A stretch of DNA of 64,000 nucleotides. Origin: Devosia lacusdianchii. Lineage in GTDB: Bacteria > Pseudomonadota > Alphaproteobacteria > Rhizobiales > Devosiaceae. Below the pieces are notes generated by a model. The model did not search any database. It saw only the letters and a list, made by a program, of their open reading frames with translations, and was not told the DNA's origin. Positions within the stretch are counted from its first letter, which is position 1. Every line of letters starts with the position of its first letter. Below, one piece after another: positions 8,844-64,000 of the stretch. Location of the stretch: assembly GCF_022429625.1 (NCBI RefSeq), contig NZ_CP092483.1:992001-1056000 (forward strand). The letters are read 5' to 3'. Position numbers and translations under genes: made by a program.

Positions 8844-8852
8844 GGGATGCCC

Positions 8853-50217: not shown

Positions 50218-51915
50218 ATGGACCGCTACGACTACGTCATTGTCGGCGGTGGCGCCGCCGGCTGCGTTCTCGCCAACCGGCTCTCCGAAGATCCCGACAT
50301 CCAGGTCGCCCTGGTCGAAGCTGGTCCGGATCGCAATGCTCGCAAGGCCATCGTCCGCATTCCGCTTGCCATGGTCACTTTCATGGCTCCGGCGCTGGCC
50401 TTTCTTGGTGGGCCCAAATTCATGTCGTGGTTCGAGACCGAGCCCGAACCCGGCCTGCAGGGCCGGCAGATCGCGCTGCCCCGCGGTCGGGGCATGGGCG
50501 GCAGCACCAATGTCAACGGCCAGATCTATATCCGTGGCCAACGCGAGGATTTCGACCACTGGCGCGACCTCGGCAATACCGGCTGGGGATATGATGATCT
50601 GCTGCCCTATTTCCGCAAGCTCGAACGCTTCGAAGCGCTGGTCGATCCCACGACAGGCAAAATGGATTTCGCCGGCAGGCCGCTGGCTGACCAGATCGAT
50701 CCCCAGTTTCACGGCATCGATGGTCCGCTCAACATTGCACCTCTGCGAAGCGTCAATCCCCTGGCCCGCCTCTACCTCGAAGCTGCCCGATTGGCCGGCC
50801 TGAAACTCAACCCTGATTTCAATGGCGCCACCCAGGCCGGCGCCGGTCTCTATACCTTCACCCAGCGCAACGGTCAGCGCGTCACCGCCGAAGGCGCCTA
50901 TCTCGATCCGGTGCGTCATAGGCCCAATCTGCATGTCCTGAGCGATCGCAAGGTCACCAGAATCCTGATGGACGGCAAACGCGCCACCGGCATTGCCTGG
51001 ACCAGCGCGACAGGGCAGGGCACCATCGCCGCCGGCGAAGTCATCCTCTCGGCCGGCTCCTTCGTCTCGCCGCATCTGCTCATGCTTTCGGGCATCGGCG
51101 ACGCGGCGCAATTGCGACGCCACGGCATCGAAATGGTCCAGCACCTGCCCGGTGTCGGCGAGAACCTGCAGGACCATCTCGACGTCACGCTGGAATACCG
51201 CGCCAAATCGACGGCGCCCTACGGCATTTCCTGGCGCGCTTTGCCGCGCAATGTCCTCCACGTCCTCGATTGGCTATTCCGCCGTCGCGGCCTCTTCGCT
51301 TCCACCACTGGCGAAGGCGGCGCCTTCGTCTCCACCGTCCCCGGCCAAAGTCGTCCCGACATCCAGCTGTTCTTCTGCACCGCCATTGGCAATACCCAAA
51401 ATGCTGGCGGTTTCACCGGCCACGGCTTTCTCATGCATGTCTGCCAGCTTCGCCCCGGCAGCGTCGGGCGCCTGCAACTGAAAAGTGCTGATCCCGCCGA
51501 AAAGCCGTCCATACTCTACAACTTCTTTCGCGGCGACAGCACCATGGACGCCCTACGCGCCGGCGTCCGCATCGCCCGCAACATTATTGCGCAGTCGCCG
51601 TTCCGGCCGCATCTCGATCGCGAAGTCGATCCGGGCCCCGACGAGCAAAGTGATGGCGCGCTCGATGCCTTCATCCGCCGCACTGTCGGCACGCTCTTCC
51701 ACCCGGTCGGCACCTGCGCCATGGGCACCGGTCCCGACGCGGTCGTCGACCCCGCCACACTTCGGGTGCATGGTGTAGAGGGCCTGCGAGTCATCGACGC
51801 CTCGATTATGCCCACCATTGTCTCGGCCAATACCGTGGCCGCCACTTACTGCATCGCTGAAAAGGGCGCTGACCTGATCCGCGCCGGAACTACCAAGGGA
51901 GCATCACATGGCTGA
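50218..51915 (+). CDS. GMC-family FAD oxidoreductase
   Basis: 565 aa flavoenzyme of the choline/glucose dehydrogenase family. FAD dinucleotide motif DYVIVGGGAAGCVLANRL, second signature GMGGSTNVNGQIYIRG, PROSITE-like GAGEVILSAGSFVSPHLLMLSG and the catalytic histidine H495 in FHPVGTCAMG, with NTVAATYCIAEKGADL at the end. No Tat or Sec signal, so cytoplasmic or peripheral. It would oxidise an alcohol group with electrons passed to quinone or oxygen. Starts three bases after the SDR stop and overlaps the next SDR gene by eight bases. Confidence 0.92.
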   Translation: MDRYDYVIVGGGAAGCVLANRLSEDPDIQVALVEAGPDRNARKAIVRIPLAMVTFMAPALAFLGGPKFMSWFETEPEPGLQGRQIALPRGRGMGGSTNVNGQIYIRGQREDFDHWRDLGNTGWGYDDLLPYFRKLERFEALVDPTTGKMDFAGRPLADQIDPQFHGIDGPLNIAPLRSVNPLARLYLEAARLAGLKLNPDFNGATQAGAGLYTFTQRNGQRVTAEGAYLDPVRHRPNLHVLSDRKVTRILMDGKRATGIAWTSATGQGTIAAGEVILSAGSFVSPHLLMLSGIGDAAQLRRHGIEMVQHLPGVGENLQDHLDVTLEYRAKSTAPYGISWRALPRNVLHVLDWLFRRRGLFASTTGEGGAFVSTVPGQSRPDIQLFFCTAIGNTQNAGGFTGHGFLMHVCQLRPGSVGRLQLKSADPAEKPSILYNFFRGDSTMDALRAGVRIARNIIAQSPFRPHLDREVDPGPDEQSDGALDAFIRRTVGTLFHPVGTCAMGTGPDAVVDPATLRVHGVEGLRVIDASIMPTIVSANTVAATYCIAEKGADLIRAGTTKGASHG

Positions 51916-52675
51916 CTTCGCTGGCAAGGTCGCATTGGTCACCGGCACCACCGGCATCGGTCGCGCCATCGCCCTCAAGCTCGCCGCTGAGGGCGCAAAA
52001 GTCATGGCTCTGGGGATCGACATCGCGGGTAATGCCGCCCTGACCGCCGATGGCTATATCGCCGTGCGCCTCACCGACGTATCGGTCCCTGATGACGTCG
52101 AAGCGGCCATCGCCGACACCGTCGCCCGCTTCGGCGGCCTCGACGTTATTATCAATTCCGCTGCCGTTCATCCGTATGGTGACTGTGTGACCACCGACCC
52201 CGCCACCTTTGCCCATTGCCTCGCCGTCAACGTGGGTTCGATCCATCTCACCGCCCATTTCGGCGTGCCCCATCTACGCCAGCGCGGCGGCGGCAGCATC
52301 GTCAATATCTCAAGCGTTCAAGGCCATGCCTGCCAGCAAAACGTGGCGGCCTACGTGGCATCCAAAGGCGCCATCCATGCGATGACCCGCGCCATGGCCC
52401 TCGATTTCGCTGGCGACCACATCCGCGTCAATTCCATCAGCCCCGGCTCGATCCGCACGCCGATCCTCGCTCGGGCCGCCAGGCTCAACGACCCCGACGC
52501 CGATATAGACGCCGCTTTCGCCCGCTACGGGGCAGCCCATCCCCTGGGCCGCATTGGCGAGCCCGAGGAAGTGGCCGAACTGGCCGCCTTCCTCGCGTCC
52601 CATCGCGCCGCTTTCATCACCGGGGCAGATCACCGCATCGATGGTGGCCTGACATCAGGAATTGCCGTGCGCTAA
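51908..52675 (+). CDS. SDR oxidoreductase with a shortened cofactor loop
   Basis: 255 aa. Catalytic S136, Y149 and K153 are intact (NISSVQG; YVASKGAI), and the C-terminus FITGADHRIDGGLTSG is a classical SDR end. The cofactor loop reads V-T-G-T-T-G-I-G, one residue shorter than the usual TGxxxGxG, and the NNAG motif is NSAA. It may still bind NAD(P) but with altered geometry. Last gene of the plus-strand operon. Its 3' end overlaps the 3' end of the convergent GatZ-like gene by 21 bases. Confidence 0.88.
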   Translation: MADFAGKVALVTGTTGIGRAIALKLAAEGAKVMALGIDIAGNAALTADGYIAVRLTDVSVPDDVEAAIADTVARFGGLDVIINSAAVHPYGDCVTTDPATFAHCLAVNVGSIHLTAHFGVPHLRQRGGGSIVNISSVQGHACQQNVAAYVASKGAIHAMTRAMALDFAGDHIRVNSISPGSIRTPILARAARLNDPDADIDAAFARYGAAHPLGRIGEPEEVAELAAFLASHRAAFITGADHRIDGGLTSGIAVR

Positions 52676-53950
52676 GGTCCTGGCAGATCGGGCGTACAAG
52701 TCGATTTGCTGCCGGATCGCCAGCAGCAGCAGTGACCGCGCATCGGTCGCGTGACCATCGATTGCTACGGCGCTGTGCAGGTTGCCGAGGAACTGGCTGA
52801 TCAGCGGCATTGGAATGGTGCTGCTCCCCAAGGCTGCCATCAGACGGTTGACGGCAGAAACGGCATCCGGATGCGGCCAATAATATCTGATGCGGTCCGA
52901 ATAACTGAAATGGCGCTGCACCCGCAGAGCAGCATCACCGCCGTGGTAATATTTCTGCCAATGCTGCGGTTCGCGCAGCATCAGCTCCTCCATGGCCAGA
53001 GCCACCGTCTGTCGCGGGGATAGCACGCCCAGCGCGACTGCAACCTGATCGAGCCCATAAATTGCTTCGCGTAGGGCGAAAGTGAGGGCCGGGCCGACCT
53101 TGAGGATGGAAAAGCCATCTGCAACCAGGGCCGAGAGCGCGGTTTCGGGCTGGTAGTCGGTTGAATGGGCCTCGAAGACGAACTGTGGTGCCTGCTGCAA
53201 GACGTCGCTCAGGGCTCGCGCCTTGGCGGGTTCATAGACCACCACATCCTCATTGCCGAATTCGACGCCCGGCTGCACCACAACGCCGACCACGCGGGAG
53301 AATGGATCACTAAGCCCGCGTGCTGCGAACGCCCTGCGGTGCACTTCGATCGTATCCAAGGCAGCGGCGGGCTTGGTGACCTGCAGGTGATCGAGAGCTT
53401 CCAGCGCACCACCGGGAACGGGCACTTCGGTGCCGATGATATAGACCGGCTTTTCACCGCCGGCGGGCAAGGCACTTTCGGCGGCTTGCGCCAGAAACGC
53501 CGCCCGTTCGGCCGTCACGTCATCCGGCAAGGCGACAGGCTCCGCCGCGCAGCCCATGCTGGTATCGAGATGCAGCTTGGTGAAGCCGGCCGCAGCAAAA
53601 GCTGCGATCATCACCCGCGATTTTTCCATCGCCTCGTCGGCTGGCAAATGCTTCCAGGGATTGGGACCGAGATGGTCGCCGCCCAGGATCAGCTTGCCGG
53701 TATCGAAACCGACCTTCGCCGCGATTGCCTCCACGAATTGGCGAAAGTCGAGCGGGGTCATCCCGGTATAGCCACCATCCTGGTTGACCTGATTGCAGGT
53801 CGCCTCGATGAGCACAGCATGCCGGTTCTCGCGACCGGCGAGCAGCGCGCTCTCGACTACCAGAGGATGCGCCGAACAGATTGAGACGATGCCGACACGC
53901 TCGCCTGCACGGTGTTGCCGGGGCAGGTCCAATAGCATGGCGGTGCTCAT
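52655..53950 (-). CDS. GatZ/KbaZ-family protein, probable tagatose-6-phosphate 4-epimerase
   Basis: 431 aa from ATG 53950, overlapping the PfkB stop (ATGA). Family-typical stretches: GERVGIVSICSAHPLVVESA, LIEATCNQVNQDGGYTGMTP, ILGGDHLGPNPWKHLP, FTKLHLDTSMGCAAEP, YIIGTEVPVPGGA and RIRYYWPHPDA. Classical GatZ/KbaZ is a non-catalytic helper of the GatY/KbaY aldolase, but no GatY/KbaY gene is in the window. In Agrobacterium a GatZ homologue paired with a PfkB tagatose kinase was shown to be a D-tagatose-6-phosphate 4-epimerase giving fructose 6-phosphate; this gene pair has the same composition. Assignment by analogy. Confidence 0.85.
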   Translation of the reverse strand: MSTAMLLDLPRQHRAGERVGIVSICSAHPLVVESALLAGRENRHAVLIEATCNQVNQDGGYTGMTPLDFRQFVEAIAAKVGFDTGKLILGGDHLGPNPWKHLPADEAMEKSRVMIAAFAAAGFTKLHLDTSMGCAAEPVALPDDVTAERAAFLAQAAESALPAGGEKPVYIIGTEVPVPGGALEALDHLQVTKPAAALDTIEVHRRAFAARGLSDPFSRVVGVVVQPGVEFGNEDVVVYEPAKARALSDVLQQAPQFVFEAHSTDYQPETALSALVADGFSILKVGPALTFALREAIYGLDQVAVALGVLSPRQTVALAMEELMLREPQHWQKYYHGGDAALRVQRHFSYSDRIRYYWPHPDAVSAVNRLMAALGSSTIPMPLISQFLGNLHSAVAIDGHATDARSLLLLAIRQQIDLYARSARTLAHGNS

Positions 53951-54891
53951 GCTTGCACCTGGCGGGCAAGAAATGCATCGAGTTCGGCGCGAGTTGAGGT
54001 CCCCTCCATCGGTCCCTTGCGGCCTACCGCCAAAGCCCCGGCGCCGTTGGCGCGGCGCAGGTTTGTCTCTGCGTCCAGTCCGGCCAGCCACCCCGCAAGG
54101 AATGTTGCGCCAAAGGCATCCCCGGCCCCGGTCGGGTCGATCTCTTCGACCGAGAAGGCTGGTACCGAGAGGTCTTTCGTGCCGTCAACATAGCGTGCAC
54201 CGGCCGCGCCCTGCTTGAGCACGACAGCACGAACCCCCCGGGCCAGAATGTCCCTGGCGGCGGTTTCTTCGGTGATTGCGTCGGAGAAAAGCAGCACCTC
54301 TGCCCCGCTCGGCATGAACAGGTCCGTTTGCGCCAGCACCTTATGCAGCGCCGCGCGTAACCCAGTAAACTCCAGCATTTCCTTGCGAATATTGGGGTCG
54401 AACGACACTGTGCCGCCGCGCGCCTTGACTTCGCCGAGTGCGAACAGCACGGCCTCGATAATACCCGCTGACACGAGTGACGATCCCATGACATGCAGAT
54501 GCCCCGCCGAAGCGATGACCGCTCTCGCCTCAGAGGTCAGACCGATCTGTCCATTGGCGCTGTGCTTGATGTTGAACACGAAGTCGCGCTGTCCATCCCC
54601 ACGGTAGCGTACGAACGCGCTGCCGGTCACCGCATCCTCATGGACCCGGATCGCCGAGACATCGACGCCGTCCTGCTTGAGCCGCTCGATATTGAGCCAG
54701 CCGAAATCGTCATTGCCTACACAACTGATCATGGCGCAGGGCTGACCTTGTTTGGCCATCTGGTCGATAAAAATGGCCGGGGCGCCCGAAGGGTAGGGCC
54801 CAACCAACGCGATGGCTTCGCGAAAGCCGTTGCCCGGCGCGACGGCCATGATCTCGACGACGATCTCGCCAATGGTCACAACTTTGATCAA
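53947..54891 (-). CDS. PfkB-family sugar kinase, probable tagatose kinase
   Basis: 314 aa when started at TTG 54891 (IKVVTIGEIVVEIMAV); AAAGG lies 12 bases upstream, so the start is tentative. Ribokinase-fold marks: GPYPSGAPAIFIDQMAKQGQ, SCVGNDDFGWLNIERLKQDG, and the anion-hole/catalytic motif DPTGAGDAFGATFLAGWLAG. The GatZ-like protein is encoded directly behind it with ATGA overlap. The pair matches the D-tagatose kinase plus 4-epimerase module used for galactitol/altritol/tagatose in Agrobacterium. The remnant of a ROK repressor lies just upstream, so the operon may have lost its regulator. Confidence 0.85.
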   Translation of the reverse strand: MIKVVTIGEIVVEIMAVAPGNGFREAIALVGPYPSGAPAIFIDQMAKQGQPCAMISCVGNDDFGWLNIERLKQDGVDVSAIRVHEDAVTGSAFVRYRGDGQRDFVFNIKHSANGQIGLTSEARAVIASAGHLHVMGSSLVSAGIIEAVLFALGEVKARGGTVSFDPNIRKEMLEFTGLRAALHKVLAQTDLFMPSGAEVLLFSDAITEETAARDILARGVRAVVLKQGAAGARYVDGTKDLSVPAFSVEEIDPTGAGDAFGATFLAGWLAGLDAETNLRRANGAGALAVGRKGPMEGTSTRAELDAFLARQVQA

Positions 54892-55021
54892 AGCGGTTGC
54901 TGCCTTTCGGAAAAGAGGATGACAGGGTTCGCGTACCGGTCGCTCCGGCAACGCCCTGTTCGCCGGGGTGAAGGACTTTATCGTCGACCGAGAGCATGCG
55001 TTGGTGCATCAAAACCGCCCC

Positions 55022-55126
55022 GCCCAGCGCGCGTGCCAGGTCGGCCCGGCTCATGCCGCCGCCGCGGGACAGCACGTTGAGAGCCCGCAATGCATTGAGG
55101 TATCGGATGGATTGAGGGGTTGCCAT
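55022..55126 (-). pseudogene. Truncated ROK-family repressor (HTH remnant)
   Basis: From ATG 55126 the minus strand encodes QSIRYLNALRALNVLSRGGG and then MSRADLARALG, the N-terminal winged HTH of a ROK repressor (compare the intact gene at 43747-44934). After about 35 residues similarity stops and the frame continues with unrelated sequence. No ROK domain follows before the PfkB gene. It was probably the regulator of the PfkB-GatZ operon before deletion. Confidence 0.6.
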
Positions 55127-55544: not shown

Positions 55545-56312
55545 TTAGTTCCGCACCGGGAGATCGGTTGTGATGCGGTCCAGCAGGCCGGCTTGGCGGA
55601 TGTCGACAAACGTTCCTGAGAACTCGTCGCCAAAGCCGGCAGCGAGCCAGGCCACCGCATTGGCTGGTACCGAGGGGGGCAGTAGGTCGGCTTGTGGTAC
55701 GTCGGATACTTGATTGACCTTGGCCGTACGTATGGCCGCTTGCATATTGGTGTCGACCAGTCCGGGTGCGAAGGCGAATGCTTTGAGATTCTGGCTCGCT
55801 CCTTCGAGCGCGGTGGATTGGGTCAGCATCAGCAGTGCCGCCTTGGACGCGCAGTAGGCGGCCCAGCCGGGCAAGGGGCGAAGGGCTGCTCCGCTAACAA
55901 CGTTGATGACGCGGCCATGCGAGAGGTGGGGCCATAGCGCCGCCGTCAGCGCTGCGGGACCGGTGACATTGACGCGCATCGCTTGATCGAAGGCGATGGG
56001 GTCAATGCCTGGAATTGGTCCCATCGGCTCGATGGTTGCCGCGTTGTTGACGAGGACATCCAACCGCCCAAAGGCAGAGATGGCGGCGGCCGCTCGATCG
56101 TGCAGAGCGGGCAGGTCCGATACATCGAGTGCCAGTCCTGTGGCCGTTCCGCCAGCCTTTGTGATTGTCGCAATTGTCTGCGCGCAATCCTCGATGCGTC
56201 GCCCCGCGACGATGACCTTCGCACCGAAGCTTGCCGCAGCTTCGGCGATGGCAGCACCCAGTCCAGCCCTCGCGCCTGTGACGAGAACGATCTTGCCGGC
56301 AAGTGCGCTCAT
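55545..56312 (-). CDS. SDR oxidoreductase
   Basis: 255 aa. Cofactor motif TGARAGLG (12-19), NNAA, catalytic S140, Y153, K157 (NVVSGAALRPLPGWAAYCAS). The C-terminal part (FAPGLVDTNMQAAIRTAKVN; AWLAAGFGDEFSGTFVDIRQ) is longer than in classical SDRs and recalls sepiapterin-reductase-like members. Last gene of the seven-gene minus-strand operon; its ATG overlaps the preceding SDR stop by four bases. Likely oxidises an intermediate of the pathway; substrate unknown. Confidence 0.9.
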   Translation of the reverse strand: MSALAGKIVLVTGARAGLGAAIAEAAASFGAKVIVAGRRIEDCAQTIATITKAGGTATGLALDVSDLPALHDRAAAAISAFGRLDVLVNNAATIEPMGPIPGIDPIAFDQAMRVNVTGPAALTAALWPHLSHGRVINVVSGAALRPLPGWAAYCASKAALLMLTQSTALEGASQNLKAFAFAPGLVDTNMQAAIRTAKVNQVSDVPQADLLPPSVPANAVAWLAAGFGDEFSGTFVDIRQAGLLDRITTDLPVRN

Positions 56313-57115
56313 TTCGTTGGTCCGCGCTGGGCGGCTTCGCGGACGGTTTCGGCGGCAGGTGTTGCAGCATAGGCCTGGAAGCCGCCCGTGATGTTGATCA
56401 GTTCACCGGTGATAAAGCCGGTATCCGGCCCCATTAGCCAGGAGACCCCATTGGCGACATCGTCGGGGGTGCACCAACGGTGCAGCGGGATGGTGGAAAC
56501 CACTTCGGCCTCGAACTCCGACCATTCCTTGCCCAGCTTTTCGGCCTTGCGGCGGAAGGCAGCTTCCATGCCGGTGCCCGGGCCGACATGGCCGGGGGCG
56601 ATGCCGTTCACGCGGACGCCGCTGGTGGCCATTTCGATGGCAAGGCATTGAGTGAGGCCCCAGATGGCATTCTTGGAAGCGATATAGACCGACGAGAATG
56701 GGTTGCCGAAGCCGAGCTTGGTGATGATGTTGACGATGCGTCCGTCACCCTGCATCGCCATGATGCGCGCGGCTTCGCGGCACATGAGGAAGGTGCCGCG
56801 GCTATTGACGCGGTGGATGCGATCCCAGTCGTCGGCGCTGGTTTCGACCACCAGCGATTGCATGTGGATGCCGGCATTGTTGACGAGGCCATAGAGGCCG
56901 CCGTGCCGGTCGGCGATAGCGCGCACGCCGGCGGTGACCGAGGCTTCGTCGCCGATATCGAGCATCTGCGCGTCGCAGCCGATGTCGGTGGCGGCGGCCC
57001 GGGCGGCCGCATCGTCGCGATCGGCGACGACGACGGTGTGCCCATCGGCATGGAGACGACGGGCAATGGCGCGGCCGATGCCGCCGGCGCCGCCGGTGAC
57101 GATGATCGCGCTCAT
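56309..57115 (-). CDS. SDR oxidoreductase with Thr in place of catalytic Ser
   Basis: 268 aa. Cofactor motif TGGAGGIG (7-14), NNAG at 79-82, Y144 and K148 intact. Where the catalytic serine is expected (NISS), the sequence is N129-I-I-T132, so Thr replaces Ser and the loop to the Tyr is one shorter. C-terminal end FITGELINITGGFQAYAATP is typical of sugar-acid and polyol dehydrogenases. Coupled by ATGA overlaps to both neighbours. Thr can substitute in catalysis but this is rare. Confidence 0.9.
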   Translation of the reverse strand: MSAIIVTGGAGGIGRAIARRLHADGHTVVVADRDDAAARAAATDIGCDAQMLDIGDEASVTAGVRAIADRHGGLYGLVNNAGIHMQSLVVETSADDWDRIHRVNSRGTFLMCREAARIMAMQGDGRIVNIITKLGFGNPFSSVYIASKNAIWGLTQCLAIEMATSGVRVNGIAPGHVGPGTGMEAAFRRKAEKLGKEWSEFEAEVVSTIPLHRWCTPDDVANGVSWLMGPDTGFITGELINITGGFQAYAATPAAETVREAAQRGPTK

Positions 57116-57933
57116 GCGGCGCTCCAGGCGCGGAACAGGTCACGCATCTTTACAGTCTCCGTCAGAACGTCCTGGTGCAGGGTGTCGAAATAGCCCTGGT
57201 GGACATATTCGCTGGATAGCCAGCCTTGGTAGCCAGCGTCGCGGAAGGTGGCGAACATGGCGGGGAAATTGAGTGTGCCCTCGTCGAGGCGCGTCTGCAG
57301 GGCGCCGGGCCGGGCCTGCCGCAGATGAGCGTGGCCAAACCATGGTGCCAGGGCGTCGATCTCTTCCTGTCTATAACCGGAGACGGCGAAATGGGCGTAG
57401 TCGATGGCCAGCTTGACGCCGGGCGCGCGCTGGCAGAGCTCGGCCGTGATGGAAGGGCTTTCGAGATAGGAATGGACATGCGGCTCGATGCAGACAGTAA
57501 TGCCGGCCTGCGCCGCAGCGTCCAATAGTGGCTTCAGGGATTCAACCGTTTCGGTAAGTGCCTGTGAGCGGCTTTGGGCGCCGTTGATGACGCCGGGCAG
57601 GATGAAGACGGTCGGCGACCCGGCGGCGACGCAGAATTTGAGCGCCTGACGGAAATCGACGAGGTTTTCCGCGCGATGGGCAGGATTGGCCAGGTTGCGC
57701 TCGACCGTGTCATTGCCGAACAGGTGATAGAGGTTGGAGATCTCGACCGGCAGGCGCTGGCGAATCTCGGCGGCGTAGCGGTCCGGTTCGCCCAGGAGAC
57801 GCGGCTTGTCGAGTGCCGAGCGATAGAAATAGCCGACGTCGACGCCTTCGATGCCGAGCACTTTGGCGAGGCCGCCGACTTCGTCGAGCGTCAGTTGTGG
57901 AAAGGACCACGAGGTCACCGAAAAACGGATCAT
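57112..57933 (-). CDS. TIM-barrel sugar isomerase/epimerase
   Basis: 273 aa xylose-isomerase-like TIM barrel. Metal-site candidates: CIEPHVHSYLESP (Glu, His), KLAIDYAHFAVSG (Asp, His) and WFGHAHLRQARPG (His), then GTLNFPAMFATFRDAGYQGW with LSSEYVHQGYF (Glu). It is not closely similar to the TIM-barrel protein at 46162-46983. Predicted to isomerise or epimerise a keto-sugar or sugar acid made by the Gfo/Idh/MocA enzyme encoded directly upstream (ATGA overlap). Confidence 0.87.
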   Translation of the reverse strand: MIRFSVTSWSFPQLTLDEVGGLAKVLGIEGVDVGYFYRSALDKPRLLGEPDRYAAEIRQRLPVEISNLYHLFGNDTVERNLANPAHRAENLVDFRQALKFCVAAGSPTVFILPGVINGAQSRSQALTETVESLKPLLDAAAQAGITVCIEPHVHSYLESPSITAELCQRAPGVKLAIDYAHFAVSGYRQEEIDALAPWFGHAHLRQARPGALQTRLDEGTLNFPAMFATFRDAGYQGWLSSEYVHQGYFDTLHQDVLTETVKMRDLFRAWSAA

Positions 57934-58979
57934 CGCACGTCCTCCATCCGCCCCGAATGGGCCGAGCGGTACATGGCGTCGAGCAAAACCGCCGAGCGCA
58001 TGCCGACCGTGCCATCGGCCGGATTGGTCGCAGGAGCGCCGCGGCAGAGATCGACCAGCAGGGTGATCGGGGCGATCGACTCATAGCCGCCCGCGTCATC
58101 GGGCAGCGTTTCGATATGAGTCTTGCCGTCGTGACGAATGACTTCGACGCGGGCGCGCTCGATGTCGAATAGCAACATACCCTCGGTGCCAAAGACGCGG
58201 ATATCGATCTGATAACCGCGCGCCTTGGGCACGGTGGCCGAACCCGACAGGGAGACCGTGGCGCCGTTGCTGAGTTCGACCACGGCGGCGTCGTAGAAAT
58301 CGACCCCGGCGGGGGACAGGCCGGTGCGGGCAAAGACCTTGACCGGGTCGAGGTCGACAATGCGGAACAGGGCGCCGAGGCCATGGGTCAACTGGCCCCA
58401 GCCATAGCCGCCGAAATTGTTGGGATCGGCCCAGGTCGAGGCGGGCGGGCGGAACAGGTGGTCCTGCGTTTCGGCCATGGGCTGGCCGCCGAACAGGTCG
58501 GTCAGGGCCGAGGCCATCTGCGCCACCACATGGCGCACGTCGCCAATCCAGCCTTCGGCCACCAGCCGATGGGCGGTCTCGACGATGGGCTTGTAGTTCC
58601 AGCCATAAGGCATGACGATCTGGGCTTTGTGGGCGTGCGCGGTGTCGACGAGGGTGCGCGCGTCGGCGGCCGTGGTCGCCATCGGCTTTTCGATCAGCGT
58701 GTGGAGGCCGCGCGTGAGCGCCATCTGGGCATGCTGGAAGTGCAGCGTGTGGGGTGAGGCCACCACGACGCCATGCAACTGTTCGCTCTCCAGCATGGCC
58801 TGGGCATCGCGGTAGGGTTTGACGCCGGGGAAGCTGGCAGCGACCTTGTCGAGGCCTTCCTGATCGGGGCGATTGACCGCCAGCGTGCCGACATTGGGAT
58901 TGGCCAGCAGCGCCGGGATGTGGCTCAGCGTGGCCCACCAGCCGGCGCCGATGACGCCGATATTGACCTTGTCACTCAT
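57930..58979 (-). CDS. Gfo/Idh/MocA-family oxidoreductase
   Basis: 349 aa from ATG 58979, overlapping the upstream stop; the frame is open far upstream only as shadow. Rossmann motif NIGVIGAGWWATLSHIPAL, the EKP lysine K98 in LIEKPMATTAADA, and the C-terminal domain with YGWNYKPIVETAHRLVAEGW and NNFGGYGWGQLTHGLGALFR. The substrate-side His in QLTHGLG is typical of the family. NAD(P)-dependent dehydrogenase of a sugar or sugar-acid hydroxyl. Confidence 0.92.
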   Translation of the reverse strand: MSDKVNIGVIGAGWWATLSHIPALLANPNVGTLAVNRPDQEGLDKVAASFPGVKPYRDAQAMLESEQLHGVVVASPHTLHFQHAQMALTRGLHTLIEKPMATTAADARTLVDTAHAHKAQIVMPYGWNYKPIVETAHRLVAEGWIGDVRHVVAQMASALTDLFGGQPMAETQDHLFRPPASTWADPNNFGGYGWGQLTHGLGALFRIVDLDPVKVFARTGLSPAGVDFYDAAVVELSNGATVSLSGSATVPKARGYQIDIRVFGTEGMLLFDIERARVEVIRHDGKTHIETLPDDAGGYESIAPITLLVDLCRGAPATNPADGTVGMRSAVLLDAMYRSAHSGRMEDVR

Positions 58980-59959
58980 GGCTTGCCTCCCTGCGTGCCG
59001 ATGGATCCGGGGACGGGTTTGCGCAGGGGCCGTCCGGCCAGGTGCGCGGCGATATCGTCGGCCACCAATTGTTGCAATCGGGTGATGGCCTGCTCGGAAT
59101 ACCAGGCGGCGTGGGGCGTCAATGTCAGATTGGGGGCGTCGCGCAGTGGCGAATTCGACGGCAAGGGCTCGGTGCCGAACACGTCGAGGGCGGCTCCAGC
59201 GATCGTGCCGGCCTTGAGCGCGTCGGCCAGTGCGGCCTCGTCGATCAGCGCGCCGCGAGCGGTGTTGATGATGACGGCATTGGGTTTCATCCGGGCGAGA
59301 CGGTCGGCATTGATGAAGCCAGTGGTTTCGGCGGTGGCGGGAGCATGGAGGCTCAGCACGTCGGCCTGGGTGATGAGGTCGTCGGGCGAGACGCGGCGGA
59401 CGTTGAGGCTTTCGGCGGTGGCGGCGTTGAGCATCGGATCGGCGACGATGAAGCGGAAGCCTGAAGGCGCGAGGCGCTTCAGCACTGAACGGCCGATCTG
59501 GCCAAGCCCGAGAAAGCCGATCGTCGTATCGGCATAGGCGGGTAGCGGCTTGGCGATCTTGACGGCGGCCCACTCGCCCCGGCGCAGGCTGGCGTCAAGC
59601 GGCACGATCTTGCGCAGGTGCATCAGGATCAGCGCGGTGGTGTGGTCGGCGACTTCGTCGAGACAATAGTCGGGAACGTAACCGGTTGGTACGCCCTGAT
59701 CATTGGCGGCGGCGATGTCGATATTGTCGAAGCCGATGCCGTAGCGAACCACGGCGGCGCCGGGTGCTAAGGCGGCAATGGCGGCGCGGCTCATCGGCGC
59801 GAATTGCACGATGGCGACGTCGGCGCCGGCCACAGCAGCGGTCACGTCCTCAGCGGTGCGGCACTGGAAGGCGGCGAACTCGGCGCCGGCGGCGCGAGCC
59901 GCCTCAGCTTCAGCGTCGAGGCTGGGAAAGGTGTAATCGGTGACGACGACGCGCATCAT
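58976..59959 (-). CDS. D-isomer-specific 2-hydroxyacid dehydrogenase
   Basis: 327 aa from the first of two ATGs (59959). NAD-binding GLGQIG at 151-156 and the catalytic triad R235 (NTARGALID), E264 (GTEPLP) and H283 (LTPHAAWYS) are complete. N-terminal part with VQFAPMSRAAIAALAPGAAV resembles C-terminal-binding-protein-type members. It reduces a 2-keto acid to a D-2-hydroxy acid or the reverse, which fits a pathway through a 2-keto-3-deoxy sugar acid or glyoxylate/pyruvate derivative. Coupled by ATGA overlaps on both sides. Confidence 0.93.
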   Translation of the reverse strand: MMRVVVTDYTFPSLDAEAEAARAAGAEFAAFQCRTAEDVTAAVAGADVAIVQFAPMSRAAIAALAPGAAVVRYGIGFDNIDIAAANDQGVPTGYVPDYCLDEVADHTTALILMHLRKIVPLDASLRRGEWAAVKIAKPLPAYADTTIGFLGLGQIGRSVLKRLAPSGFRFIVADPMLNAATAESLNVRRVSPDDLITQADVLSLHAPATAETTGFINADRLARMKPNAVIINTARGALIDEAALADALKAGTIAGAALDVFGTEPLPSNSPLRDAPNLTLTPHAAWYSEQAITRLQQLVADDIAAHLAGRPLRKPVPGSIGTQGGKP

Positions 59960-60735
59960 TGTCCTGCCAGATAATCGTGGACGATCTCGCCGGTGACGAG
60001 GGTGAAATCGGCGCGCCAGTAGAAGGCTTCCAGCGGCTCGACCACGGGCAGGCGGAAGATCGGCGCCTGGGCATTGGGCCGCAATTCGACCGTGGCCGGG
60101 CCGCGCCAGCATTCGTGCACGACCACGTCGGTGAGCTTGCGCGAGGTGATCTGGCGGATCGCCGGCGTGCCATCGATGTGGTTGATGGCCTTTAGATTGA
60201 GATTGGTGCCGAAGTCGAAATGGGCGCGGATTTCGGCCGGGTCGGCCCGTTGCTGCTTATAGGGCGTGGTGACGGTGATGACGTCGATGCCGTTGCGCTC
60301 GACGCCGCCGACGATCAGGTCGCCGCGAAAATCGAGGAAGGGATTGGCGAGCTTCTTGGGCTGGCCATGCACCTCGCGGCCATGGGCGACGCCGCCATCG
60401 GAGGACAGGAACAGATAGGGCGAATAGGCGCCGCTGCGGCCATTGGGGAGCTTGGCGCCAAACATCACATTGGCCTCGTGATAGGGGCCGATCCAGCTCG
60501 TGTCGTTCATCTTGTAGATGTGGATGGCGACCACATCGCCGGTGGGTTCGACCGGTGGCGGCGCAAGGAAAGCGGCCGCCGCCGCATCGGTGCGCCAGAA
60601 CACCGTCAACACCTCGGCATTGCGAAAGGTGAAGGGGAAGGGCGGGATGAAGGGGGCGTCCCAGGGGGTGGAGAAGCCGCCAGCCAGAATGTCGGCTTCG
60701 GTGACCTTGTCGAGGCCCCAGCGTTTGTCGCTCAT
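59956..60735 (-). CDS. Acetoacetate decarboxylase family protein
   Basis: 259 aa, usual family length. The Schiff-base lysine pair is K127-K128 in GREVHGQPKKLANPF, and E87 in YHEANVMF corresponds to the active-site Glu of clostridial acetoacetate decarboxylase. Not all family members decarboxylate: some act as aldolase-dehydratases or hydratases on keto acids. In an operon with a 2-hydroxyacid dehydrogenase and divergent from a dehydratase, it more likely processes a keto-deoxy sugar acid than acetoacetate. Overlaps the GntR gene upstream and the dehydrogenase gene downstream by four bases each. Confidence 0.88.
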   Translation of the reverse strand: MSDKRWGLDKVTEADILAGGFSTPWDAPFIPPFPFTFRNAEVLTVFWRTDAAAAAFLAPPPVEPTGDVVAIHIYKMNDTSWIGPYHEANVMFGAKLPNGRSGAYSPYLFLSSDGGVAHGREVHGQPKKLANPFLDFRGDLIVGGVERNGIDVITVTTPYKQQRADPAEIRAHFDFGTNLNLKAINHIDGTPAIRQITSRKLTDVVVHECWRGPATVELRPNAQAPIFRLPVVEPLEAFYWRADFTLVTGEIVHDYLAGQ

Positions 60736-61484
60736 TTTGCCCTCATGGAGGCTTGGGTGGATTGGAGCACGTGGCTCATGTGGGTGGCCATGGCGAGGCG
60801 CGCGGCCTCGGCGTCACCGGCGCGCAGGGCGGCGATGATGGCGCGGTGATCTGTTATCGAGGTGGTGATCACATTGGGCGTTTCCGACGCCGTCTTGCGG
60901 AATTCCTGGCCGAGAATGTTGAGGCTCTGGGCGGCGCGGGCGAGGAAGTCGTTGCCGCTGAGTTCGGCCAGCCCGCGGTGAAAAGCGGTATCGAGCTCGC
61001 GGTATTTTGCCGGTTCCAGCTTGGCCGCGTCCTGCAGATCAACCAGGTCCGTCAGGGCGTCGAAATCGGCCGGGGTGGCCTGGGCGGCGGCCAGCGCGGC
61101 GATCTCGCCTTCGATTAACCTGCGGGCATCATAGAGTTTTTCGACTTCGCTGGCGCGCAAGGTGAGGAAGAAGGTCAAGGGACCGAGCAGGTCGCTGGCT
61201 TCGAGTTGGGAAACGAAGGCGCCGCCGCCATGGCGAACTTCCACCACGCCCAACACATCCAATGCGCGGATTGCCTCGCGCAGCGTCGGGCGGGAAACGT
61301 CGAAGGTTTCGGCGAGCTTGCGTTCGGAGGGGAGCTGGTCGCCGGGCTTGAGCTCGCCCGTGGTGACGAGGCTGAGGATGCGGGCCACCAGCAGCTCGGT
61401 CAGTCCGGCCTTCTTGAGAGGCGCTTCGCCGCTGAAATCACTCACAGGCAAGCTGGTGTTCTCCTCGCAATGCGCTGGCAGCAT
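60732..61484 (-). CDS. GntR-family regulator, FadR/FCD subfamily
   Basis: 250 aa from ATG 61484. The GTG at 61526 also opens the frame but lies inside the palindrome at 61512-61528, so it is rejected as start. Winged HTH: LSLVTTGELKPGDQLPSERK then LAETFDVSRPTLREAIRALD, followed by VVEVRHGGGAFV. FCD domain with LYDARRLIEGEIAALAAAQA, AFHRGLAELSGN and DHRAIIAALRAGDAEAARLA, metal-binding histidines included. First gene of the seven-gene operon and divergent from the dehydratase gene. It probably represses both through TGGTCTGACCA-type sites, released by a sugar acid. Confidence 0.92.
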   Translation of the reverse strand: MLPAHCEENTSLPVSDFSGEAPLKKAGLTELLVARILSLVTTGELKPGDQLPSERKLAETFDVSRPTLREAIRALDVLGVVEVRHGGGAFVSQLEASDLLGPLTFFLTLRASEVEKLYDARRLIEGEIAALAAAQATPADFDALTDLVDLQDAAKLEPAKYRELDTAFHRGLAELSGNDFLARAAQSLNILGQEFRKTASETPNVITTSITDHRAIIAALRAGDAEAARLAMATHMSHVLQSTQASMRAK

Positions 61485-61511
61485 GCTTGCTGTCTTCTTG
61501 CACAAGTGGCC

Positions 61512-61528
61512 AAGTGGTCTGACCACTT
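61512..61528. promoter_or_regulatory. GntR/FCD operator (palindrome)
   Basis: AAGTGGTC-T-GACCACTT is a perfect 17-base palindrome containing TGGTCTGACCA, the core typical of FCD-type GntR operators. It lies between the GntR gene (start 61484) and the dehydratase gene (start 61627), and a TTGACG -35-like box (61530-61535) for the plus strand touches it. Two related sites lie at 63476 and 63541. Confidence 0.75.
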
Positions 61529-61626
61529 ATTGACGTAGCAGGCGCTTCGGTGCTAGTCAATCGATCGGCACGACGAGCCCGGCCAACGGGTCCGCCCCGA
61601 AAGTGGGAATTGGAGGACAGCATACG

Positions 61627-62754
61627 ATGCGCATCGGCAGCATCCGCACGACCGTGATCCGCTACGAGGATACCAACGACAACCACAACTGGCGCTACAC
61701 GGTGCTGGTGCGGGTCGAGACCTCGGATGGCGTGGTCGGCTGGGGCGAGGGCATCGCCATGTGGCCCGAGGCCTGCAAGGCGACGCGCACGCTTGTTGAT
61801 GAAGGGTTCGGGCCGCTGCTCCTGGATGCCGGGGAAATCACCATTGCCGAAGCCTGGGACAAGATGCGGGCGCATGCCTGGTGGTATGGCGAGGGCGGGA
61901 TTGCCTGCTTTGCATACTCGGCGCTCGACATGGCGCTGTGGGATATTCAGGGCAAGATCGAAGGCAAGCCCATCTATGACCTGCTGGGTGGCAAGCGGCA
62001 CGAGAGCCTGCCGGCCTATGCCTGCAACCACGTCAACAAGGCGACGCGGGAGCTCAACGTGGCCGAGGTGGTCGGCTTCAAGGAGCAGGGGTTTACCGGC
62101 GGCAAGCTTGGCTTTGCCAAGCGCGGGCTTTCCGATATCGGCAAGGCCGGGCCGGACAATGATGTGGCTTTCGTCGCCGCTTTGCGGGCGGCAGTGGGTG
62201 ACGATTATGACATCGTCGTCGATATCGGCAACGGCATGCGCTGGGACCGGCAGATGGGCATCGATACGACACGGCGCATGGCCGAGTTCAATATCGGCTG
62301 GATCGAGGAGCCGTTCTACCCGACCCAGATCGACGATTATCGGGCGCTGAAGGCGGCGGTCGATCTGCCCATCGGCTCGGGCGAGCGCGAGTTCACCGTC
62401 AGCGGCTATCAGCGGCTGATCGACACCGGGACGGTGGATATTCTGGGCGTCGACCCATCGCGGGCCGAGGGGATTACCGGTTTTCACAAGGTCGACGCGG
62501 CGTGCGGCAAGGCGGGCATTACCATCAATGCCCATGCCTGGAGCTCTGCGATCCTGACGGCGGCAAGCCTGCATTTGTCCTTGGCCTCTCCCAATGCCCG
62601 ACTGTTCGAACTCAAGCCCTTCAAGGTTTCGGTGCAGACCGACCTGGTGGACAAGCCGATCTGGCACAAGAATGGCGTCGTTACCGCGCCGACGGGTCCC
62701 GGCCTCGGGATCGAGGTCAACGAGGCGCTGGTTGCGGAGCTTAGCCTTGATTAG
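61627..62754 (+). CDS. Mandelate racemase/enolase-superfamily sugar-acid dehydratase
   Basis: 375 aa from ATG 61627 (GGAGG ten bases upstream). Enolase-superfamily capping domain, residues 1-125, then the barrel with metal ligands D199 (VVDIGNG), E227 (WIEEP) and E253 (GSGERE), the second-strand lysine K160 (GGKLGF), and the D276/H303 dyad (GVDPSRAEG; INAHAWSS). This is the mandelate-racemase subgroup arrangement, mostly acid-sugar dehydratases that give 2-keto-3-deoxy acids. Substrate not predictable by eye. Its 3' end overlaps the convergent SGNH hydrolase gene by 14 bases. Confidence 0.9.
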   Translation: MRIGSIRTTVIRYEDTNDNHNWRYTVLVRVETSDGVVGWGEGIAMWPEACKATRTLVDEGFGPLLLDAGEITIAEAWDKMRAHAWWYGEGGIACFAYSALDMALWDIQGKIEGKPIYDLLGGKRHESLPAYACNHVNKATRELNVAEVVGFKEQGFTGGKLGFAKRGLSDIGKAGPDNDVAFVAALRAAVGDDYDIVVDIGNGMRWDRQMGIDTTRRMAEFNIGWIEEPFYPTQIDDYRALKAAVDLPIGSGEREFTVSGYQRLIDTGTVDILGVDPSRAEGITGFHKVDAACGKAGITINAHAWSSAILTAASLHLSLASPNARLFELKPFKVSVQTDLVDKPIWHKNGVVTAPTGPGLGIEVNEALVAELSLD

Positions 62755-63418
62755 CGGCAAGCCCCAACATCGTTTGGACGCGCTCGGCCAGCGCCAGACC
62801 AAGGGCGCGATGCGCCCCGGCGTCGAGGTGGATTCCGTCGTCGTCGCTGGATTGGATGAACGTACCGGCATCGAAAAAGGGAACGCCAAGGGCCTTGGCG
62901 ACGCGGGCGTATTCGGCGGCAAATTTCTGCGATTTGGCGCTGCCGCCTTCGAACATGTCCGCCAGCCATGTGAGTTTGGCGAGCGGCGCCGGGGCGACCA
63001 GCAGGACGCTTGGGCTGCCGTCACGACCGGTGCCGGAGCGCTTGACGATATCGACCAGCTTGCCGGCGCCGTCGGCGATATCGCCGGCCTGCATGCTCAG
63101 ACGGGTCTTGAGGTCGTTGGTGCCCAGCATGATGATGACAAGATCGAGCGGCATATGCGTGGTCAGGGCGATCGGCAGGTAGCGCTCGCCATTGCGGATG
63201 GGGCCCTCGATCGGGTCGTCGACGCACGTGGTGCGGCCGTTGAGGCCTTCCTCGAAGATTTCGACCTGCGGACCGAGCGCGGCGCCCATGATCCGGGTCC
63301 AGCGTTCCGTCGTGCCAAAGCGTCCGCCTGCGCCGCGATAAGGCTGCGGAATGGCGCCCCAGGTGTTGGAATCGCCGTAGGCCAAGATGTTCAGCGGCGG
63401 GTTGGTCCCGTCCTGCAT
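62741..63418 (-). CDS. SGNH/GDSL-family esterase
   Basis: 225 aa from ATG 63418, preceded by GAGGAGGA; upstream frame is not coding. Block I G15-D16-S17 in AYGDSNTWG, block II in EEGLNGRTT, block III GTND (99-102) and block V D194-G-I-H197: catalytic triad S17, D194, H197. The phrases LPIALTTHMPLDLVIIMLGT and FFDAGTFIQSSDDDGIH resemble the Mycobacterium smegmatis aryl esterase/acyltransferase (MsAcT). No signal peptide. It may deacylate the imported compound or open a lactone. Confidence 0.92.
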   Translation of the reverse strand: MQDGTNPPLNILAYGDSNTWGAIPQPYRGAGGRFGTTERWTRIMGAALGPQVEIFEEGLNGRTTCVDDPIEGPIRNGERYLPIALTTHMPLDLVIIMLGTNDLKTRLSMQAGDIADGAGKLVDIVKRSGTGRDGSPSVLLVAPAPLAKLTWLADMFEGGSAKSQKFAAEYARVAKALGVPFFDAGTFIQSSDDDGIHLDAGAHRALGLALAERVQTMLGLAANQG

Positions 63419-63475
63419 ACAGTCCTCCTCGTTTTGTACAAAGCTAGGATGGGCGGCGAAGCCGGTCAACGAAAA

Positions 63476-63488
63476 TTGGCCTGACCAA
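63476..63488. promoter_or_regulatory. GntR/FCD operator candidate
   Basis: TTGGCCTGACCAA, an imperfect palindrome (TTGGnC-n-GnCCAA) with the same half-sites as 61512-61528. It lies in the divergent region between the esterase gene (start 63418) and the binding-protein gene (start 63577). Confidence 0.6.
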
Positions 63489-63540
63489 AATACCAATTTG
63501 ATATTGCTCACGCTAAAAGAGCATGCAATTGTCCGGATAA

Positions 63541-63553
63541 TTGGACAGACCAA
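63541..63553. promoter_or_regulatory. GntR/FCD operator candidate
   Basis: TTGGACAGACCAA, second site of the same form, 24 bases before the ATG of the binding-protein gene. It is nested in a larger repeat: TTGGACA (63541-63547) pairs with TGTCCAA (63555-63561), and CAATTGTCC occurs twice (63526-63534, 63551-63559). Strong repression of the importer by the GntR protein at 60732-61484 is inferred. Confidence 0.6.
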
Positions 63554-63576
63554 TTGTCCAAAAATGGGAGAGAGAG

Positions 63577-64000
63577 ATGAAATTGAATAGCTTGCGCCTG
63601 GCAGCCCTCGCCGGGCTCACGACAGTGCTCATGTCGGGCGCTGCCTTCGCCGAAGACTTCCACGGGTTTGATCCGGCCAATTTCGATGGCAATATGGTCA
63701 GCGCCGAGCAGTTGGCCGCCATGGTGACCGATGCCATCGCCGCCAATGCGCCGCGCAATGGCGAAAAGCTGACCATCGGCTTCGCCAACCTGGCCCGCGA
63801 CGTATCGTTCTGCCTCAAAGTGGAAGAGGGCATCATTGCCAATGCCGAGGCCGCGGGTATCGACCTGCAGGTGGTGGACAACCGCCTCGACGGCGCCACA
63901 GCTTTGGCCAATGCGCAGAGTTTCCTGCAGCGCAATGTGGACTTCGTCATCGAATTCCAGACCGACGCCAATTTCGGCGCCACCATCATGCAGCAAATGG
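63577..64000 (+). CDS. Sugar ABC transporter substrate-binding protein, 3' end outside window
   Basis: First 141 codons of a periplasmic binding protein; the gene runs off the window. GGGAGAGAG precedes the ATG. Signal peptide MKLNSLRLAALAGLTTVLMS ends at AAFAEDF. The mature start has an N-terminal extension (HGFDPANFDGNMVSAEQLAA) before the usual first strand LTIGFANLARDVSFCLKVEE, then VVDNRLDGATALANAQSFLQ. The extension is unlike ribose-binding proteins and hints at a particular subgroup. With the GntR sites upstream, it should import the substrate of the 55545-62754 enzymes. Confidence 0.88.
   Translation, partial: MKLNSLRLAALAGLTTVLMSGAAFAEDFHGFDPANFDGNMVSAEQLAAMVTDAIAANAPRNGEKLTIGFANLARDVSFCLKVEEGIIANAEAAGIDLQVVDNRLDGATALANAQSFLQRNVDFVIEFQTDANFGATIMQQM

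Follow-up and report, generated by a model that had tools for sequence, protein, structure and literature searches.

Known pathways and the ADC operon

In the non-phosphorylating Route III, L-fucose, L-rhamnose and pentoses are degraded by an aldose 1-dehydrogenase, a lactonase, a dehydratase, an SDR 4-dehydrogenase and an FAH hydrolase, as set out in two accounts (PMC6336799, PMC11199699). The window analysed here, a 64,000-nucleotide stretch of Devosia lacusdianchii DNA, resembles these systems in clustering a dehydrogenase, a mandelate-racemase-type dehydratase (MR), SDRs and an ABC importer, and among 57 related loci a mutarotase is found in 39 and an FAH hydrolase in 15. However, the operon in the window has no FAH and adds an enzyme of the acetoacetate decarboxylase fold (ADC), a D-2-hydroxyacid dehydrogenase (2HADH) and a TIM barrel (TIM). 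No FAH-type 2,4-dioxo-acid hydrolase was found in the ADC operon or in the adjacent rhamnose operon, and the five matches in the same genome lie elsewhere, the best at C1:3648916.

The ADC operon consists of seven minus-strand genes, GntR-ADC-2HADH-Gfo-TIM-SDR2-SDR1, and the 4-bp stop/start overlaps at all six junctions point to a single co-transcribed unit. It encodes a FadR-type (GntR+FCD) regulator, GntR1 (60732..61526; PF00392 and PF07729), the ADC-fold enzyme (59956..60735; PF06314, 191 bits), 2HADH (58976..59959; PF02826/PF00389), a Gfo/Idh/MocA dehydrogenase, Gfo (57930..58979; PF01408), the AP_endonuc_2 isomerase/epimerase TIM (57112..57933; PF01261), SDR2 (56309..57115; PF13561) and the core short-chain dehydrogenase SDR1 (55545..56312; PF00106), where 58979 and 59959 are corrected starts. 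The gene for MR, a predicted acid-sugar dehydratase of the mandelate-racemase/enolase type (61627..62754, plus strand; PF13378 and PF02746), is divergent from this operon. A predicted GDSL/SGNH esterase or lactonase (62741..63418, minus strand; PF13472) lies outside it and is divergent from the importer genes, the first of which encodes a periplasmic sugar-binding protein (Pfam Peripla_BP_4) on the plus strand; it begins with the ATG at 63577, fills the window to 64000 and ends at 64764.

MR shares the proposed metal ligands and the Lys/His bases with the D-galactonate and L-rhamnonate dehydratases of the MR subgroup of the enolase superfamily, and K160, D199, E227, E253, D276 and H303 are invariant in a 50-row alignment. 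Despite its MR domains and likely catalytic residues, it falls below all the listed dehydratase cut-offs: the best NCBIfam model, galactonate dehydratase, gave 173.6 bits against 311 and the L-rhamnonate dehydratase model 125 against 393. L-rhamnonate dehydratase is encoded separately in this genome. Its best PDB matches are 3sjn and 3ozm. TIM is weakly related to 2-oxo-tetronate isomerase, whose step belongs to the L-threonate pathway; the idea of a beta-oxo-acid decarboxylation is a further likeness to that pathway. However, the TIM score of 43.5 bits is far below the cut-off, which is 325 (hydroxypyruvate isomerase, 37.4 against 353), and the ADC operon has no kinase gene. E150, D178, H203 and E242 of TIM, presumably its metal site, are invariant in 42 rows save for one gapped row. 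Gfo has an EKP motif with K98 kept in 42 of 43 aligned rows, and R235, E264 and H283 of 2HADH are invariant in 44.

Within the SDR1 group, W150, Y153, K157 and R195 are invariant in 50 rows. The SDR of Route III, L-KDFDH, has carboxylate ligands of the R-T-R-R type (PMC11199699). At Tyr-3 SDR1 has Trp150 instead of Arg, and the Arg pattern is absent. Its absence is compatible with a KDR-type role for SDR1, because KDR dehydrogenases use ligands other than those of L-KDFDH.

Conservation and two modules

Using the ADC protein as query, 57 other genome loci were found, mostly in Alphaproteobacteria, with some in Beta- and Gammaproteobacteria; Deinococcota, Bacteroidota and Actinomycetota are represented by one row each, with only part of the gene set. 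Near ADC there are homologues of MR in 50 loci, of the SDR1 group in 49, of 2HADH in 44, of Gfo and TIM in 42 each, of SDR2 in 12 and of the esterase in five, counts which depend on score thresholds of our choice and on contig ends, by which several loci are truncated (L041, L044, L046, L056, L061 and L095 among them). SDR2 largely alternates with 2HADH, nine of its 12 loci being without the latter. The gene set around ADC is thus real and not a chance assemblage. Indeed, all the families named in the initial annotation are present according to Pfam, the set it named recurs for the most part around ADC homologues, and the neighbourhood analysis it proposed for the ADC protein places MR there in 50 cases. 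Also supported is its view of a system for sugar or sugar-acid catabolism with an MR-type dehydratase at its head. In a mirror-tree comparison of nine genes, uncorrected for species relatedness, the pairwise identities of ADC correlate best with those of 2HADH (0.92), although GntR2-ABC (0.93) and Gfo-SDR1 (0.92) reach as high.

Among the 41 loci that have a sugar-type ABC binding protein, Gfo and TIM are present in 37 each and a RhaM-type mutarotase in 38, whereas the seven loci with only acid-type importers (TRAP or MHS) have none of the three and keep MR, SDR1 and 2HADH in six each. The Fisher test, uncorrected for relatedness, gives 4.5e-6 for Gfo, 4.5e-6 for TIM and 1.6e-6 for RhaM. Since Gfo, TIM and mutarotase follow the sugar importers while MR, SDR1 and 2HADH persist with acid importers, there is a sugar side and an acid side, and Gfo-TIM-mutarotase is a separable sugar-side module that the initial annotation did not contain. 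This swap offers a direct route to the substrate, as organisms with acid importers should grow on the acid itself. For the one type-B binding protein searched, that of L053, the nearest PDB entries are 5bq3 and 4kvf, labelled rhamnose-binding.

The initial annotation had placed all these genes under one GntR. Neither this nor a transcription unit shared by ADC, esterase and importer is supported: the esterase and importer genes are served by a different promoter with another type of site (ATTGGNCNGACCAA, as opposed to AAGTGGTCTGACCACTT at the GntR/MR promoter), and a further GntR gene, that of GntR2, belongs to the importer operon, at window-relative positions 67516-68256. The proposed GntR1 operator AAGTGGTCTGACCACTT (61512..61528), in the divergent GntR1/MR promoter, has 8-bp arms that are fully complementary, is the sole site in the genome at one mismatch or fewer, and its core recurs at this promoter in nine of nine type-A relatives. 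A GntR1 start closer to 61487 would put the operator upstream of the gene. Two proposed GntR2-type operators, ATTGGCCTGACCAA (63475..63488) and ATTGGACAGACCAAT (63540..63554, overlapped by a further inverted repeat), have comparable sites in L039, L040 and L047 among the 21 sequences searched; none was found in L055, nor in front of the importer genes in L043, L045 and L046, where importer identity is only 54-65%. At that promoter, L084 and L085 showed no GntR1-type core.

Beyond the window, the importer operon continues as a recognisable L-rhamnose pathway, with genes for the binding protein, ABC ATPase, permease, GntR2, L-rhamnose 1-dehydrogenase (442 bits against an NCBIfam cut-off of 400), RhaM (69026-69343), L-rhamnonate dehydratase (452 against 393) and a likely KDR dehydrogenase. 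For RhaM the homologue in L039, the only one scored, passes the family cut-off (108.6 against 99.6).

The ADC-fold clade

The ADC protein shares with acetoacetate decarboxylase (PF06314; PDB 3bgt and 3bh2) the fold family and a score above the PRK02265 cut-off (177.6 bits against 150). In the alignment with 3bgt, K127/K128, E87 and R48 correspond to the Schiff-base lysine pair Lys115/Lys116, Glu76 and Arg29 of acetoacetate decarboxylase. However, it forms a separate clade (split support 100), stands in a sugar-acid operon, has H72 in place of Glu61 and has H123 and Q125 in place of the hydrophobic Trp and Phe of the pocket. In a 65-row alignment, all 57 clade rows, that of the window included, have R48, H72, E87, H123, Q125, K127 and K128; the clade signature is HGQPKK. 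Seven outside rows, 34-38% identical, have E, W and F at positions 72, 123 and 125, and a Conexibacter row has N, Y and Q. This outgroup is not wholly canonical, because two of the seven deviate: L017_4 has lost the equivalents of E87 and K127 and L016_8 that of R48. PADLOC gave no match for the ADC protein.

We read this protein, from its residues and context, as a putative lysine-imine C-C lyase acting on a sugar-derived keto acid. Retro-aldol cleavage seems more likely than decarboxylation of the acetoacetate type, given the change from Glu61 to His72 and the more polar pocket, and the database label "acetoacetate decarboxylase" is probably wrong. It may be, though we would put it a little below an even chance, that the HGQPKK clade is a new enzyme, paired with a D-2-hydroxyacid dehydrogenase, whose lysine-imine cleavage of sugar-derived keto acids closes a fourth, undescribed non-phosphorylating sugar-acid route in which the sugar and acid front ends are interchangeable. 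If so, a large group of proteins is misannotated as acetoacetate decarboxylase and sugar-acid breakdown has a new reaction, chiefly among Alphaproteobacteria but also among some Beta- and Gammaproteobacteria. At E ≤ 1e-60 the ADC protein has 1375 matches in the database, a count by similarity and not by signature.

Proposed pathway and alternatives

We tentatively propose, with a little less than even confidence, that the locus serves the non-phosphorylating catabolism of a rhamnose- or fucose-type aldose and of its sugar acid in two modules, with the ADC lyase and repression by GntR1 and GntR2. In the sugar module, the ABC importer would take up the sugar, and Gfo, TIM and, in most relatives, the RhaM-type mutarotase would convert it to an aldonic-type acid. 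In the acid module, dehydration of the acid by MR would yield a 2-keto-3-deoxy acid, whose oxidation state SDR1 and 2HADH (or SDR2) would shift, and the ADC-fold enzyme would break a C-C bond via an imine at Lys127. GntR1 would repress the ADC unit from AAGTGGTCTGACCACTT and GntR2 the neighbouring importer/L-rhamnose operon. TIM is given no specific step in this scheme. The earlier suggestion of cleavage of the dehydratase product by the ADC protein fits the lyase reading. Gene content, conservation, the module swap, the types of site, the clade and its residues are observed, whereas we infer the substrate, the bond, the order of steps, the pairing of regulators with sites and the repression.

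The gene set is widely shared but apparently undescribed: every listed NCBIfam match of SDR1 and SDR2 (25 at best for each), TIM, Gfo, 2HADH and MR stays below its curated cut-off, and literature searches in an open-access library turned up no such cluster, in agreement with the initial annotation. The sugar may be neither rhamnose nor fucose, because the six type-A/C genomes checked all hold an L-rhamnonate dehydratase above cut-off and some type-B genomes carry separate L-fucose-type genes.

The alternative that survives best, although we think it unlikely, is that SDR1 produces a beta-oxo acid, such as 2-keto-3-deoxy-hexarate bearing a C4 ketone (beta to C6), ADC decarboxylates it and FAH splits the resulting 2,4-dioxo acid into pyruvate and a hydroxy acid. 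The lysine pair, E87 and R48 of true acetoacetate decarboxylases are retained, and the acylpyruvate-type FAH found near ADC in 15 of 57 loci, directly after 2HADH in L060, L072, L076, L077 and the plasmid L097, fits this route and counts against the C-C lyase reading. Of 27 genomes that bear ADC, 26 have an Lra6-type FAH match (E ≤ 1e-100), as have 48 of 142 genomes across the class, with the D. lacusdianchii genome in both sets and none of the 27 at the family cut-off. This enrichment is unmatched for genome size, and it is confounded because FAH genes outside the cluster often stand within L-fucose-type or unrelated sets. FAH as a required partner was therefore discarded, several of the 12 regions fetched around such genes being of these kinds. 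Moreover, the route leaves 2HADH without a step, the rhamnose-like features do not suggest a diacid, and E61 is replaced by His.

In a class-I keto-acid aldolase route, ADC would split the MR product directly into pyruvate and an aldehyde that 2HADH, TIM and SDR process (with an aldarate, from tartronate semialdehyde through hydroxypyruvate to glycerate). Pyruvate-aldolase activity occurs in the ADC fold. The best NCBIfam matches of TIM, although far under cut-off, are 2-oxo-tetronate and hydroxypyruvate isomerases, and the PDB matches of 2HADH include glycerate/glyoxylate dehydrogenases, although phosphoglycerate dehydrogenase and CtBP rank higher. We regard this as distinctly unlikely: TIM is absent from the seven acid-importer loci, which makes its acting after the acid improbable, and there would be competition from the FAH encoded in the same operons.

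An ordinary second L-rhamnose pathway, with MR and Gfo as non-orthologous L-rhamnonate dehydratase and L-rhamnose dehydrogenase, seems equally hard to credit. RhaM, the rhamnose-type binding protein and the shared importer region agree with it, as does the run MR-SDR4-FAH in L078, whose SDR4 is 81% like its rhamnose-operon counterpart. However, it would be redundant where L-rhamnonate dehydratase (six of six type-A/C genomes searched) or a rhizobial-type L-rhamnose isomerase (four of 19 genomes) is present, and it leaves ADC and 2HADH unexplained. A single L-rhamnose pathway is weakened by the L-rhamnose genes next door, by L-rhamnonate dehydratase in nine of 22 genomes and by the isomerase in the same four of 19. 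Very improbable, finally, is an oxidation of the aldonate at C2 by 2HADH, with TIM shifting the keto group to C3 (a shift that OtnI carries out in threonate breakdown), ADC releasing CO2 to give a ketose and MR on a parallel branch: the weak 2-oxo-tetronate isomerase match and the ADC-2HADH linkage favour it, but seven acid-importer loci keep ADC without TIM, and in type-B operons, L050 and L072 for instance, the MR and ADC genes overlap.

Returning to the lyase reading, C4 oxidation of a 6-deoxy acid followed by retro-aldol cleavage would release acetoin. A keto-transposition leading to glyoxylate and acetoin was considered because L089 has an E1-alpha/beta pair next to genes for MR-like, Gfo and ADC proteins, and was set aside; no dedicated acetoin dehydrogenase was seen in the D. 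lacusdianchii genome, which has a lone E1-alpha match, 39% like the L089 query. The PfkB and GatZ/KbaZ genes at 52655-54885 were also rejected as members of the unit, being the best match (E ≤ 1e-15) for no ORF in the 57 loci. A further SDR gene, SDR0, lies near the ADC operon at 51908-52675.

Gene order around the ADC-fold protein

The genome holding the window is a single contig of 4.36 Mb. Seven genes run from 61526 down to 55545 (-), in the order GntR1 (a regulator), the acetoacetate-decarboxylase-fold (ADC) protein, a D-2-hydroxyacid dehydrogenase (2HADH), a Gfo/Idh/MocA dehydrogenase (Gfo), a TIM-barrel isomerase (TIM) and the short-chain dehydrogenases SDR2 and SDR1, with a 4-bp overlap at every junction. 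GntR1 is divergent from the gene of a mandelate-racemase-type dehydratase (MR), whose end is overlapped by an SGNH esterase gene (-); divergent from the latter, a sugar-binding protein gene (+) extends beyond the window. On the other side, at 54710-55126 (-), an apparent N-terminal HTH end, which we take to be that of a ROK-type regulator, is followed by unrelated-reading sequence with no Pfam match, and is probably a gene remnant. A GatZ/KbaZ-like protein and a PfkB kinase (52655-54885, -, 4-bp overlap) form a separate sugar set; no ORF in the 57 ADC loci described below had either as best match.

Scanning genome contigs with the ADC protein yielded 57 loci. In a class sample of 385 genomes, 24 had a match at E <= 1e-30, and just two of these, the own genome and a second one (77%), exceeded 38% identity; in the 80 records of a plasmid scan, two matches were above 60%. 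By thresholded calls, whose misses include loci truncated by contig ends, the genes near ADC in the 57 loci were MR (50), the SDR1 group (49), 2HADH (44), ABC (43), Gfo and TIM (42 each), the mutarotase RhaM and a GntR2-type regulator (39 each), a type-B binding protein (32), a GntR1-type regulator (17), an FAH hydrolase (15), SDR2 (12), an MR2-like dehydratase (11), a type-A binding protein (10), SGNH and TRAP (5 each) and MHS (4). MR, SDR1, 2HADH and ADC were all present in 38 of the 57.

Four arrangements recur. Type A (L039-L047; Devosia, Mesorhizobium, Arsenicitalea and one Hyphomicrobiales MAG) has the window-like order, often without 2HADH. Type B (Rhodobacterales, Granulosicoccus and others) has SDR and MR with ADC-2HADH-(FAH)-binding protein-ABC-GntR-Gfo-TIM-RhaM; type C (L080, L083, L092) has MR and binding protein-ABC-GntR-Gfo-TIM-SDR2-ADC, with RhaM and SDR1 alongside; and type D (L084-L087, Alcaligenaceae) has MR and GntR-SDR-2HADH-ADC-MHS permease. 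A few loci fall outside these types, e.g. L063, L076, L078, L088-L091, L093 and L094. L089 (Methylobacteriaceae MAG; 1887-5105 and 6261-9204), labelled partly by eye, has a LacI-type regulator, Gfo, ADC and SDR on one side and, divergent from them, an E1 alpha/beta-like pair (2-oxoacid or acetoin dehydrogenase) together with an MR-like gene. One protein family lies near ADC in four of the 57 loci (L063, L078, L090, L093); its L063 member has a CxYCxHCC stretch and its L093 member, of 259 aa, has no Pfam match.

Importers and two enzyme modules

A sugar ABC binding protein is encoded at 41 loci; Gfo is present in 37 of them (absent in L046, L056, L061 and L091), TIM in 37 and RhaM in 38, while the seven TRAP- or MHS-only loci have none of the three and carry MR, SDR1 and 2HADH in six each. 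Fisher tests between the two sets gave 4.5e-6 for Gfo and TIM and 1.6e-6 for RhaM, values that overstate the evidence because the seven include four related Alcaligenaceae. Two of the 41 additionally have TRAP genes (L075, L078), and nine more loci have neither importer kind, five of them with Gfo. Gfo-TIM-RhaM thus pairs with sugar uptake and MR-SDR1-2HADH-ADC with the acid. 2HADH and SDR2 largely alternate (2HADH only in 41 of the 57 loci, SDR2 only in 9, both in 3, neither in 4); the window has both. Pairwise-identity correlation with ADC over nine genes, uncorrected for species relatedness, was highest for 2HADH (0.92) and lowest for RhaM (0.48) and MR (0.56); MR has at least two sequence types.

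Past the window end, numbered relative to the window, follow an ABC ATPase (64993-66513), a permease (66524-67516), GntR2 (67516-68256), SDR3 (68240-69016; above the L-rhamnose 1-dehydrogenase cut-off), RhaM (69026-69343), MR2 (69355-70533; above the L-rhamnonate dehydratase cut-off) and SDR4 (70548-71297). PDB L-rhamnonate dehydratases match MR2 (best E 1.9e-162), and 6d9y, a putative L-KDR dehydrogenase according to the part of PMC11199699 consulted, ranks third among SDR4's four PDB matches below 1e-45. Most of an L-rhamnose Route III pathway thus lies behind the importer. None of these genes encodes an FAH hydrolase; the genome has five matches to that family, all elsewhere. Farther on (71401-81937; L008, L010), an IclR-like regulator, a SelA-like PLP enzyme, an amidohydrolase-like protein, a peptide-type ABC importer and a LacI-like regulator, labelled by eye except SelA, look like another, unrelated catabolic set.

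Putative regulatory sites

AAGTGGTCTGACCACTT at 61512-61528 is the sole place in the genome with <=1 mismatch, and its core occurs at the same divergent promoter in all nine type-A loci. TGGCCTGTCCA is found at this promoter in two of four Alcaligenaceae loci (L086, L087), and TGGACAGGCCA at two L078 promoters. The esterase/importer promoter holds two ATTGGNCNGACCAA sites (63475 and 63540), and L039, L040 and L047 have similar pairs; a motif search of L043, L045, L046 and L055 found no sites of this type. Single ATTGGNCNGACCAA-like sites lie near importer or MR starts in L080, L083, L092, L065 and L050, where a GntR2-type regulator is present and a GntR1-type one absent. This motif is less specific than AAGTGGTCTGACCACTT, with 9 exact genome-wide matches at 8 places. 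We infer two FadR-type regulators with distinct putative sites, regulator and site being paired by correlation only. A generic promoter/terminator scan of this stretch gave nothing beyond shuffled expectation.

The proposed ADC step and the candidate substrate

Residues that we take to be catalytic are conserved in the partner enzymes when relatives are aligned. K160, D199, E227, E253, D276 and H303 of MR (50 rows), R235, E264 and H283 of 2HADH (44 rows) and W150, Y153, K157 and R195 of SDR1 (50 rows) are invariant; E150, D178, H203 and E242 of TIM are constant (42 rows, one gapped at H203 and E242), and the EKP motif of Gfo is present in 42 of 43 rows, the remaining row having R for K. The type-B, type-C and type-D counterparts of SDR1 share 33-47% identity (about 107-213 bits) with it and among themselves, and the other SDRs of the set are less similar to them.

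An alignment of 241 residues between the ADC protein and PDB 3bgt, an entry with the name acetoacetate decarboxylase, shows that K127/K128, E87 and R48 are retained. For the decarboxylase, the numbering Lys115, Glu61, Glu76 and Arg29 and the residue roles are our assumption. In a 65-row alignment, R48, H72, E87, H123, Q125, K127 and K128 occur in all 57 rows of >=58% identity (window included). In seven rows, at 34-38% identity, positions 72, 123 and 125 are Glu, Trp and Phe; among them L017_4 lacks E87 and K127 equivalents and L016_8 an R48 equivalent. A Conexibacter row (45%) is intermediate (Asn, Tyr, Gln), with Glu at 48. A quick tree separates the ADC group and Conexibacter from the seven by a long branch (support 100), with a small outgroup and a long-branch warning for L094, L093, L084_88 and L091; Devosia rows are closest to the window protein.

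The ADC protein would catalyse the last step by lysine-imine chemistry. His in place of the decarboxylases' Glu61 and a more polar pocket would suit retro-aldol cleavage with a general base on a hydroxylated substrate. Direct keto-acid aldolase action, ketone migration and decarboxylation are rivals. At E <= 1e-60 the ADC protein matches 1375 database proteins; those named among the 120 listed carry the label acetoacetate decarboxylase or family protein. Judged by their listings, searches of an open-access library, short of most subscription journals, turned up no report of an ADC-family protein in a sugar-acid cluster; we drew on parts of PMC6336799, PMC11199699 and PMC13406643.

MR probably forms a 2-keto-3-deoxy acid, given the enzyme's family and the gene run of one locus, L078, where the MR frame overlaps that of an SDR resembling KDR dehydrogenase (81% to SDR4), with FAH next. 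SDR1 lacks the Arg three residues before Tyr that L-KDFDH, the L-fucose-pathway SDR, uses (PMC11199699, in part); by our reading, the extra SDR near FAH in L051, L055, L057 and L081 is L-KDFDH-like. Rhamnose-like signs are RhaM, the L-rhamnose genes behind the importer, a type-B binding protein closest to rhamnose-binding PDB entries and an alpha-L-rhamnosidase ~20 kb away (window-relative 82004-84385). Of 22 genomes searched, 9 have an L-rhamnonate dehydratase that passes the cut-off, all six type-A/C genomes in that set included, L-rhamnose isomerase (one family, TIGR02629) occurs in 4 of 19, and KDFDH-FAH-lactonase sets lie elsewhere in at least three genomes (G394, G395, G407); these argue against plain L-rhamnose or L-fucose. 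A compact L-fucose-type set (L117, L121), with roles assigned partly by eye, comprises an MR dehydratase, mutarotase-like, RraA-like and galactarate-dehydratase-like proteins, KDFDH, FAH and a fuconolactonase-like protein.
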